Source of the DNA: Brevundimonas sp.
GTDB lineage: Bacteria; Pseudomonadota; Alphaproteobacteria; Caulobacterales; Caulobacteraceae
Assembly: GCF_016463295.1 (NCBI RefSeq)
Contig: NZ_JAEMRO010000016.1
Coordinates: 1 to 37,043, forward strand
Direction of reading: 5' to 3'
Length of the DNA: 37,043 bases
Part shown: positions 2,418 through 9,087 of the stretch, piece after piece
Layout of the letters: each line of letters starts with the position of its first letter
How positions within the stretch are numbered: the first letter of the stretch is position 1
Position numbers and translations under genes: made by a program
Notes under the pieces: generated by a model
Databases searched by the model: none
Seen by the model: the letters and a program-made list of their open reading frames with translations, nothing else
Told to the model about the DNA's origin: nothing

Positions 2418-6533
<4,116 letters not shown>

Positions 6534-6844: not shown

Positions 6845-6871
6845 TGTCGATCTGCGCACTCCCGGTGCGTC
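6845..6871 (+). promoter_or_regulatory. Candidate ECF42-type promoter of the secreted YCII gene
   Basis: TGTCGA at 6845-6850 and CGTC at 6868-6871 are separated by exactly 17 bases. The downstream box continues as CGTCTCC. The same hexamer, spacing and CGTCTCC occur at 7400-7426 before the second YCII gene. From memory, ECF42 sigma factors have been reported to use a TGTCGA -35 box and a CGA/TC-type -10 box upstream of DGPF genes, and an ECF42-like gene lies about 1 kb downstream. The expected start of transcription, near 6878, leaves a leader of about 45 bases. Confidence 0.7.
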
Positions 6872-6922
6872 TCCCTGTCGACGCGGGATCGCCGCGCCGC
6901 CCCGAAAAACAGGATGACGCTC

Positions 6923-7348
6923 ATGATCCGCACCACTCTGACATCGCTGGCCGCCGCACTGGCGCTCGGCACCTCGGCCCACGCCGAGGAATTCGCCCTG
7001 TTCGTCTATGAGACCCCCGCCGACTTCGCCGCGCGGGACGACGCCGCCCGCGGCCCCGGATACTGGGGGGCCTATGCGGAACTGGCCCAGGCGATGGGCG
7101 CGGCGGGGATCGTGCGTGGTGGTGGCCCTCTGACCTCCCCGGCGCTTGGCTCCCGCGTCGCCGTCCGGCAGGGTCAATCGTCGGTGACGTCGGTCGATGG
7201 CTCAGGCGAGGCGCTCAGCGGCTGGTTCGTGATCGACGTCGCCGACCGGGCCGCCGCCGAGGCCTGGGCCGCCCGCGTCCCGGCCGCCTCGACCGCCCGG
7301 ATCGAGGTGCGGGCCGTCCTGCCGACGCCCATGCCAATGAACCCTTGA
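6923..7348 (+). CDS. Secreted YCII-like (DGPF-related) protein
   Basis: Small protein of 141 residues with a signal peptide (MIRTTLTSLAAALALG, predicted cleavage after AHA), so probably periplasmic. The mature part aligns by eye with the cytoplasmic DGPF/YCII protein encoded at 7482-7850. Shared features are a ferredoxin-like alpha/beta layout, the G-W/L-F/Y-x-IDV segment, an AxxWAxRxP helix and a terminal IEVRxxLPxPMPMNP versus IEIRPLLPPPPMPG. The DGPF signature is degenerate here (DGSG). The start at 6923 is preferred over the in-frame ATG at 6914 because AGGA lies 8 bases before it and the signal peptide then begins cleanly. The biochemical role of YCII-like proteins of this kind is not established. 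Its position beside an ECF42-like sigma gene and a matching promoter suggest membership of that regulon. Confidence 0.8.
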   Translation: MIRTTLTSLAAALALGTSAHAEEFALFVYETPADFAARDDAARGPGYWGAYAELAQAMGAAGIVRGGGPLTSPALGSRVAVRQGQSSVTSVDGSGEALSGWFVIDVADRAAAEAWAARVPAASTARIEVRAVLPTPMPMNP

Positions 7349-7399
7349 CCCTGGACAAGCGGGGCCGTTCCCTTCGATCGCAAGTTTTTCGTCGTCTGT

Positions 7400-7426
7400 T
7401 GTCGATCCCGTCCGTGCCCGCGCGTC
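7400..7426 (+). promoter_or_regulatory. Candidate ECF42-type promoter of the DGPF-sigma-FKBP operon
   Basis: TGTCGA at 7400-7405 and CGTC at 7423-7426 are separated by 17 bases, the same geometry as at 6845-6871, and the downstream box again reads CGTCTCC. The sequences between and around the boxes differ, so the match is not simply a recent duplication of the whole region. The site lies 55 bases upstream of the DGPF start codon, whose operon encodes the ECF42-like factor, implying positive autoregulation. Confidence 0.72.
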
Positions 7427-7481
7427 TCCTCATTGTCGGTCATCGCATCCGCCGATCGCCGACCCACCTCACGGAGCTCAC

Positions 7482-7850
7482 ATGCAATACGTTCTTCTGA
7501 TCCACGAACCCGAAACCGAATCCTATCCCCAGGGCGAGGCTGATCCGGCCTGGCACGCCATCCTGCAGGCCCACACCGAGTACGGCGGCCAGATGCATGG
7601 TGCCGGCGTCTTCGTCGGTGGTGCCGGTCTGAAGTCGGCCAGCCTGGCCACCACTGTCCGCGTCACGCCCCAAGGCCGCACGGTTCACGACGGCCCCTTC
7701 GCCGAGACGCGCGAGCAGTTGGGCGGGCTGTATATGATCGACGTGCCCGATCTGGACGCCGCCATCGACTGGGCCAAGAGGCTGCCGATCGCCGGCAACG
7801 GGTCGATCGAGATCCGCCCCCTGCTGCCCCCGCCACCGATGCCGGGCTGA
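7482..7850 (+). CDS. DGPF/YCII domain protein
   Basis: Protein of 122 residues without a signal peptide, cytoplasmic. It carries the hallmark DGPF tetrapeptide inside VHDGPFAETREQLGGLYMID at about residues 67-86, and an N-terminal MQYVLLIHEPE strand with the histidine typical of YCII-related proteins. The Shine-Dalgarno sequence is CACGGAG, about 6 bases before ATG. The next gene, an ECF42-like sigma factor, starts 10 bases after the stop. DGPF proteins are the characteristic genomic partners and reported targets of ECF42 sigma factors. Their enzymatic function is unknown, though a role in detoxification or stress is often suggested. Family assignment is firm; function is not. Confidence 0.92.
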   Translation: MQYVLLIHEPETESYPQGEADPAWHAILQAHTEYGGQMHGAGVFVGGAGLKSASLATTVRVTPQGRTVHDGPFAETREQLGGLYMIDVPDLDAAIDWAKRLPIAGNGSIEIRPLLPPPPMPG

Positions 7851-7860
7851 TCGGCGTACC

Positions 7861-9087
7861 TTGAGTCTTCTCGACCAGACCTTTCGACAGACCGGCGGGC
7901 GCGTCATCTCTGCGCTCGCCGCGTCCTTCCGCGATCTGGACCTGGCCGAGGAGGCCTTTGCCGAGGCCTGCGCCCGTGCTGTCGAAAAATGGAGTGACGC
8001 CCCGCCCGCCGACCCCGCCGCCTGGCTGTATGCCGTCGCCCGGCGCTGGGCGCTGGATCGCTATCGGCGCCGCGCCACCGCCGCCGCCTGGCGTCCCGAT
8101 GCCCCCCCGCCCGAGCCGACGCCCGAGGACCAGGTGATGGCCATGGACGACCCCATTCCTGACGAGCGACTGCGCCTGATCTTCGTCTGCTGCCACCCTG
8201 CGGTAGCCCACGACGCGCGCGCGGCCCTGACCCTGCGGACGGTTTGCGGCCTGACGACGGCGGAGGTGGCGACCGCCTTCCTGCTGCCCGAGCCGACCCT
8301 GGCCCAGCGGCTGGTCCGGGCCAAGCGCAAGATCGCCGAGGCCGGGGTGCCGTTCGACATCCCCGCGCCCGACCGCTGGCCCGAGCGGATGGACGCCGTC
8401 CTGTCGACGCTGGAGGTCGCCTATGCCCAGGCCCATGCTGACGCGGCCCTCGCCGGGCCCCATGCGGATTTCGCCCGCGAGATGCTGCATCTGACCGACC
8501 TGCTGGCCCGGCTTGTCCCTGATGACCCCGAAGTCCTGGCCCTCGCCGCCACGGTTCGCTTCACCGAGGCGCGCCGCCCGGCCCGGCTGGCCGCGGATGG
8601 GGCCATGACGCCGCTGGCCGACCAGGATGTGCGTGACTGGAATGGAGAACTTTGCGTGCAGGCCGAGCGGCTGCTGTCCAGCGCCGCTGCCTTGGCGCAC
8701 CGGAACCGCCACCCGCCCGGCGCGCGCGCGTTGCAGGCGGCCATTCATGCCGTACATGCCGACCGACGCCGATCCGGCCTGACGGACTGGCGAGCCGTCG
8801 TCGGTCTGTACGATGCACTTCTGACCCAGCGTGACGACCCGGTCATCCAAACCAACCGCGCCATCGCTGTGTCGGAGGTCCAGGGTCCGGCGGCAGCCCT
8901 GTCGCTTCTGGACGCCGCGCCTCAGCGTGACTGGCTGCCGTGGCGGGCCGCGCGTGCCGACATGCTGGCGCGTCTCGGTCGGGAGAGCGAGGCGGTGGCC
9001 GAATACGATGCGGCTCTCGCGCTGCAGCCCTCCCCCGCCGAAGCCCTATTCCTCGCCGCCCGCCGCGCTGCTAGCGTCGCGGCATGA
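7861..9087 (+). CDS. ECF42-like RNA polymerase sigma factor with long C-terminal extension
   Basis: Sigma-70-family ECF factor, 408 residues, roughly twice the size of a classical ECF sigma. Sigma region 2 spans about residues 8-80 (DLDLAEEAFAEACARAVEKW, then AWLYAVARRWALDRYRR). Region 4 spans about 105-165, with a helix-turn-helix around LTTAEVATAFLLPEPTLAQR. The remaining 240 residues form the helical DUF6596/TPR-like extension typical of ECF42 proteins, which from the literature is needed for activity and replaces a dedicated anti-sigma factor. None is encoded nearby. Translation appears to start at TTG 7861, 10 bases after the DGPF stop; no better ATG or GTG precedes region 2. The stop overlaps the FKBP start (ATGA), so the three genes form one operon. 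Confidence 0.92.
   Translation: MSLLDQTFRQTGGRVISALAASFRDLDLAEEAFAEACARAVEKWSDAPPADPAAWLYAVARRWALDRYRRRATAAAWRPDAPPPEPTPEDQVMAMDDPIPDERLRLIFVCCHPAVAHDARAALTLRTVCGLTTAEVATAFLLPEPTLAQRLVRAKRKIAEAGVPFDIPAPDRWPERMDAVLSTLEVAYAQAHADAALAGPHADFAREMLHLTDLLARLVPDDPEVLALAATVRFTEARRPARLAADGAMTPLADQDVRDWNGELCVQAERLLSSAAALAHRNRHPPGARALQAAIHAVHADRRRSGLTDWRAVVGLYDALLTQRDDPVIQTNRAIAVSEVQGPAAALSLLDAAPQRDWLPWRAARADMLARLGRESEAVAEYDAALALQPSPAEALFLAARRAASVAA

Follow-up and report, generated by a model that had tools for sequence, protein, structure and literature searches.

Paired TGTCGA-N17-CGTC promoters predicted to join a putatively exported YCII protein to an ECF42 sigma operon in Brevundimonas

Two matching boxes, each preceding a YCII gene in a 37,043-nucleotide stretch of Brevundimonas DNA (hereafter the window, in whose positions all coordinates are given), are very probably promoters recognized by RNA polymerase with an ECF42-type sigma factor, the product of the gene at 7861-9087. 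Through them, this factor would switch on its own YCII-sigma operon together with the gene of a predicted exported YCII protein (Table 1). The predicted regulon is well supported by comparison among genomes and its promoter rule is already published; the less expected element is the apparently exported YCII protein as a putative ECF42 target in Caulobacteraceae. Recognition of both boxes by this sigma factor, positive autoregulation, and export of the first product are what we infer from the sequence. The Brevundimonas-like genome of the window (G000) comprises 2.74 Mb in 152 contigs and is 95.6% complete; the named ECF42 loci closest to that of the window, in a protein search of named genomes, belong to Brevundimonas and other Caulobacteraceae, and no match pointing to a plasmid origin was found for the window.

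Table 1. Features of the YCII-sigma locus and its surroundings in the window
Feature	Position	Strand	Remarks and basis
Predicted ECF42 promoter 1, TGTCGA-N17-CGTCTCC	6845..6874	+	Precedes exported YCII gene; pattern scans, gene calls, motif kept at orthologues
YCII-domain protein with predicted Sec-type signal peptide, 141 aa, DGPF lost	6923..7348	+	PF03795, family alignment, hydropathy
Predicted ECF42 promoter 2, TGTCGA-N17-CGTCTCC	7400..7429	+	Precedes YCII-sigma operon; pattern scans, motif across ECF42 loci
YCII (DGPF) protein without signal peptide, 122 aa, typical ECF42 neighbour	7482..7850	+	PF03795, 72.4 bits
ECF42-type sigma factor, 408 aa, with sigma-2, sigma-4, DUF6596 and weak C-terminal TPR; TTG start	7861..9087	+	Pfam domains
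Divergent gene reading as rpoB	2418-6533	-	Translation read by eye

The two boxes and the sigma factor

Both boxes consist of TGTCGA, 17 bases, and CGTCTCC, and they lie at 6845-6871 and 7400-7426 when counted to the end of CGTC. The first stands 51 bases ahead of ATG 6923, a start codon with AGGA 8 bases ahead of it (an alternative in-frame ATG at 6914 would make the gap 42), and the second 55 bases ahead of ATG 7482. The coordinates, the 17-base spacing, the CGTCTCC box, and the distances of 51 and 55 bases given in the initial annotation of this DNA are thus all correct, and the second box indeed lies upstream of the operon encoding the ECF42-like factor, with the YCII gene (7482-7850) followed by the sigma gene (7861-9087). 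The differing flanks described there were also borne out, with 16 of 60 bases identical upstream and 14 of 45 downstream, and the spacers agree at 8 of 17 positions. Since flanks and spacers differ, the boxes are not recent copies of a single DNA segment, and a recent duplication of one promoter-gene unit was ruled out on these grounds. Neither a sigma-70-type promoter nor a plus-strand terminator was found between the two YCII genes.

The sigma factor contains sigma-70 regions 2 and 4 (PF04542 at 30.4 bits and PF08281 at 30.8 bits, both above cut-off) and a C-terminal extension of about 250 residues past region 4, with DUF6596 at 74 bits and a weak TPR part (TPR_14 at 19.3 bits, below the cut-off of 23.5). 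Among 19 ECF42-like proteins, DUF6596 was detected in all 19 and TPR_2 in 10 at an E value of 0.01, and the gene at 7861-9087 is the only DUF6596 match in G000. The remaining attributes of the family are likewise present: the YCII/DGPF gene ends 10 bases ahead of the sigma start, and the predicted promoters have the TGTCG(A/G)-N17-CGTC form expected of ECF42 targets, which has a precedent in the available part of PMC6180224. No anti-sigma factor gene was found near the sigma gene on inspection of the next two genes downstream, which encode an FKBP-type isomerase and then an M61 peptidase, and of the rpoB-like gene upstream (2418-6533).

Conservation and genomic distribution of the motif

The initial annotation had called for an alignment of the regions upstream of DGPF-ECF42 pairs from related genomes, and this comparison found the boxes conserved. 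A protein search of named genomes yielded 43 named ECF42 loci, or 44 with the window, and TGTCGN-N17-CGTC occurs in 43 of the 44 between 100 and 1000 bases ahead of the sigma gene, the 1000-base limit being set by the analyst. Within the same stretch, none of the other spacings between 5 and 30 recurs on the forward strand, each being limited to one locus or none, and six loci is the maximum for any spacing on the reverse strand. When the stretch was extended to 1700 bases, 42 of the 43 named loci had spacing 17 and 15 had spacing 18, ten of the latter through one conserved site in rpoB-like coding DNA; six showed spacing 9. The sole exception to spacing 17, L057, has GGTCGA at that very spacing with one mismatch. 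In addition, 17 of 101 genomes of the genus contain DUF6596, and TGTCGN-N17-CGTC precedes the YCII-sigma pair in 15 of the 16 besides that of the window; in G066, TGTCGG-N17-CGTC is placed 23 bases ahead of the YCII start, and the best motif of a more distant YCII-sigma pair of the Brevundimonas group (G085, locus L279) is TGTCGA-N17-GGTC and hence not exact. In a class-wide sample picked by YCII similarity, the exact motif was found within 400 bases upstream of 11 of the 19 YCII genes that have an ECF42 signature behind them, and also at 3 of 10 YCII genes without that signature in the fetched stretch. The motif before YCII-ECF42 pairs is common, though not universal.

Given that another ECF factor might read such boxes, their detailed sequence deserves attention. 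It is improbable, though conceivable, that they are read by a different sigma factor, most plausibly of the ECF41 group with its similar TGTC ... CGTC boxes at the same spacing, or by both: the ECF41 promoter of Sinorhizobium meliloti (RpoE9, SMb20029) has TGTC ... CGTC with a 17-base gap when counted alike, according to the available part of PMC6180224, but it reads TGTCAC there, whereas among 47 distinct ECF42-linked motifs TGTCGA accounts for 39 and TGTCGG for 7, TGTCG being part of the search string so that the sixth base alone was free to vary. The base following CGTC is T in 41 of these 47, and the spacer shows little conservation in its middle. Moreover, the motif instances ahead of exported-YCII and DoxX genes in the genus (see below) are confined, among the genomes examined, to those with an ECF42-type sigma gene, which speaks against a different reader.

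Conserved half-site pairs at a fixed spacing are typical of operators as well, and the boxes might accordingly be the binding site of a repressor or an activator. Such a reading is most improbable, for one box repeats the other in neither inverted nor direct orientation, and the pair co-occurs with the sigma gene and matches the promoters listed for S. meliloti RpoE10 in the accessible text of PMC6180224.

A second N17 motif was present further upstream in 6 of the 43 named loci (L034, L042-L045, and L063), followed in all six by a second DGPF-type YCII gene without a signal peptide; extra YCII genes that carry an ECF42-type promoter of their own are therefore found repeatedly, and what distinguishes the window among double-promoter loci is that its extra YCII copy is predicted to be exported. 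Other arrangements were also encountered. L041, as well as contig C15 of G101 (L160 and L172), has a tandem YCII pair behind a single ECF42-like promoter. In three loci of Roseobacter type (L068, L069, and L071), an extra TGTCGG-N17-CGTCC lies about 1210 bases past the sigma start, close behind the sigma gene, resembling the S. meliloti layout ahead of SMc01149.

The genome scan for TGTCGA-N16-18-CGTC proposed in the initial annotation had a divided outcome. This loose pattern has 5 matches in the window against 0.55 expected, 3 of them inside predicted genes, and 79 matches in G000 against 31 in the reversed control; 77 of the 79 fall inside genes called with a small model of codon usage, for which six genes served as training set, and the two intergenic matches are precisely the boxes at 6845 and 7400. 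Since the pattern is so common inside genes, raw match counts were dropped as proof. A tighter pattern, TGTCGR-N16-S-CGTCT, has four matches in G000 and none in the control; of the two further ones, one falls within a gene resembling an M16-type protease and the other lies antisense within a leuC-like gene (both named from their translations). Twenty-one genomes of the genus with a YCII-ECF42 pair (16 identified through DUF6596 and 5 through the ECF42 signature) hold 89 tight matches, of which 20 belong to the YCII-sigma operon, 3 to exported YCII genes, and 5 to the upstream regions of DoxX_2 genes, with 4 intergenic matches lacking a called downstream gene and the remaining 57 inside genes; outside the YCII-sigma operons and the exported-YCII genes, the proportion within genes is thus 57 of 66. 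For ECF42-negative genomes it is 24 of 27 distinct tight matches, drawn from 28 loci at one per genome and forming part of the matches. Taken by position, spacing, and conservation (43 of 44 loci, and the sole intergenic matches in the genome), the two boxes have the properties of ECF42 promoters that had been claimed for them.

The exported YCII gene as a predicted target

The product of the first YCII gene matches PF03795 at 26.7 bits against a cut-off of 24 (read from ATG 6914) and begins with MIRTTLTSLAAALALGTSAHA/EE, by eye a classical signal peptide, whose predicted hydrophobic core reaches 2.09 on the Kyte-Doolittle scale. Its structure model has a mean pLDDT of 88.7, with residues 1-20 at 51-60 and good confidence in the mature part. 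The DGPF motif is lost: the protein reads VDGSGEALSG at that position, and the family alignment shows the D to be variable among relatives. The YCII profile matches a sole solved relative at an E value of 0.01, namely PA1349 (PDB 1s7i). A search of 5.8 billion proteins returned 22 relatives; the 20 that were aligned (38-89% identity) all start with a hydrophobic stretch ahead of the common part, mostly ending in A-x-A. Within the genus, a match of more than 60% identity exists in 4 of 131 genomes (G000, G074, G087, and G096), and the weaker matches (27-38%), where readable, are YCII proteins starting with M-Q/H-Y or similar. All four genomes with the exported YCII gene fall within the 17 DUF6596 genomes of the 101 (Fisher p 0.0006, uncorrected for relatedness).

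In G074, G087, and G096, the exported-YCII gene and the ECF42 gene are on different contigs, and neither an ECF42-like signature nor a DGPF gene was found within 9-15 kb around the former; in G096 and G087 it lies less than 1 kb from a contig end, and the contig split sets no distance to the sigma gene. Nonetheless, TGTCGA-N17-GCGTCT stands just ahead of the exported YCII gene in all three, against a chance expectation of about 0.0002 (from the tight-match rate over three 150-base stretches). With 13 of 16 spacer bases identical between the sites of G074 and G087, the three distant promoters count as about two independent cases plus the window. As the motif is kept on other contigs, the predicted promoter accompanies the exported gene also where the sigma operon is not alongside, and this retention is the strongest sequence-based evidence for the claim that the neighbouring gene is a member of the regulon, a claim which the comparison upholds. 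The same evidence bears on the idea that the 7400 box alone is a true ECF42 promoter and the 6845 box a chance or non-functional match. Most Brevundimonas ECF42 operons lack anything comparable to the 6845 box upstream, and the gene behind this box is confined to the 4 of 131 genomes above; its three orthologues nevertheless carry the same motif, and apart from the 6845 box the genome has a single intergenic loose match, the operon promoter itself, so that this idea is unlikely and two promoters are the preferred reading.

Two genomes of a second Caulobacteraceae genus (G175 and G184) contain the exported YCII gene, the DGPF YCII gene, and the DUF6596 sigma gene in the order seen in the window, with Pfam detecting sigma region 2 and not region 4 in their sigma genes. 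No TGTCG-type motif was found ahead of their exported YCII genes. Both loci (L354 and L355) have TGTATG-N17-CGTCTG in common at this place, perhaps a variant ECF42 promoter with a changed -35 box, two sequences being too few for certainty. Across the class, 31 of 385 genomes match the exported YCII protein at an E value of 1e-14, and 29 loci other than that of the window were read; L374 and L376 gave no readable frame, and judged by eye and hydropathy, no signal peptide start was found among the others. No tie of an exported YCII, DGPF, or DoxX protein to ECF42 was found in the parts covered of the literature searched, which lay mostly outside subscription journals.

DoxX, known systems, and a possible periplasmic arm

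In the five tight matches ahead of DoxX_2, the motif lies 200-284 bases from the gene (PF13564 was confirmed in the two proteins tested), and a sixth DoxX site, with TGTCGT, was found in G096. Identical DNA shows G096 to be the genome of Brevundimonas bacteroides DSM 4726, in which the ECF42 operon, the exported YCII gene on a separate contig, and this DoxX gene occur together. DoxX is present in 41 of the 44 genomes chosen for this test, and its upstream DNA was read in 31 (30 loci from the DoxX search plus L269): the exact motif was found in 6 of 16 ECF42-positive and in 0 of 15 ECF42-negative genomes (Fisher p 0.018, relatedness uncorrected), a match with one mismatch occurring in two of the negatives, G020 and G015. 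There is no such motif ahead of the DoxX gene of G000 itself. DoxX may thus be a third ECF42 target in six ECF42-bearing relatives, and not in the genome of the window, the long leader of 200-284 bases leaving room for another explanation. Furthermore, one DoxX gene of Caulobacter crescentus, CC3257, is a member of the sigma-F regulon, with the promoter GTAACC-N16-CGAA (PMC3511200, in its available part), and hence DoxX is not tied to ECF42 alone.

Between the motif and DoxX, loci L210, L219, L242, L261, and L269 share a conserved palindrome, GTATGCATAC (TATGCATAC in L269), and four of the five have repeated dyads of the GATGTC/GATGAC type, as if further regulators acted on DoxX.

The closest described counterpart is S. 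meliloti RpoE10, as reported in the available part of PMC6180224: like the factor of the window, it is an alphaproteobacterial ECF42 factor encoded behind a YCII gene, with the same boxes, a 17-base spacing, and few targets. Six genes rose when it was overexpressed, including four, from two operons, that increased twofold or more; SMc01149 and SMb20475, both raised, are listed with TGTCGG-N17-CGTC promoters, and all three listed RpoE10 promoters read TGTCGG-N17-CGTC (spacing counted here). In view of these promoters, the rule is not new to alphaproteobacteria, and the novelty that the initial annotation saw in such an extension has to be given up. The two systems differ in the sixth base (G in S. 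meliloti, A in the window) and in their targets, which in S. meliloti have glyoxylase-like and hydrophobic-ligand-binding domains in place of an exported YCII. Autoregulation was not seen there either: overexpressed RpoE10 did not raise the YCII gene ahead of rpoE10, whose motif was suggested to overlap the mapped start, and self-activation is therefore not to be assumed in the window.

Other members of the group, described in sources likewise available in part, lend further context. Sven_0747, Sven_4377, and Sven_7131 of Streptomyces venezuelae resemble the factor of the window in a TPR-rich C-terminal extension (about 200 residues) and a conserved YCII neighbour, while being actinobacterial (PMC8999054). 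According to the same source, regulation of the sigma factor may involve the YCII neighbour, and the TPR extension is essential for activity. Pseudomonas putida ECF-10 is also an ECF42 member (PMC8999054, PMC6180224), its genomic context having been likened to that of S. meliloti rpoE10 (PMC6180224); the available passages of both papers do not mention an exported YCII such as that predicted in the window. A Xanthomonas campestris ECF42 factor was active in S. meliloti (PMC10880074).

As for the mechanism, the sigma factor would be set free to act by a signal in the cytosol, which the DGPF protein possibly passes on to the C-terminal TPR extension; the factor would then amplify its own operon and raise the exported YCII copy. 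In the periplasm, the exported copy, which is without DGPF, may deal with the same small-molecule stress, or it may act back on the signal; more speculatively, it could bind, remove, or report on the inducing compound there. It is a tentative thought, with the odds against it, that the ECF42 one-component system of Caulobacteraceae has gained a periplasmic arm in this way, the exported YCII sensing or removing the inducer outside the cytoplasm and closing a feedback loop across the inner membrane.

The literature examined, in the parts available, names no signal sensed by the widespread ECF42 sigma factors. A tiny and clean predicted regulon, with two intergenic sites in G000 and a putatively exported member, would offer a handle on that inducing signal, and the predicted exported protein may point to the site of action of the inducing compound. 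Given that the predicted exported-YCII promoter also occurs away from the sigma operon in a culturable Brevundimonas strain, the link between the sigma factor and its proposed target is directly testable.
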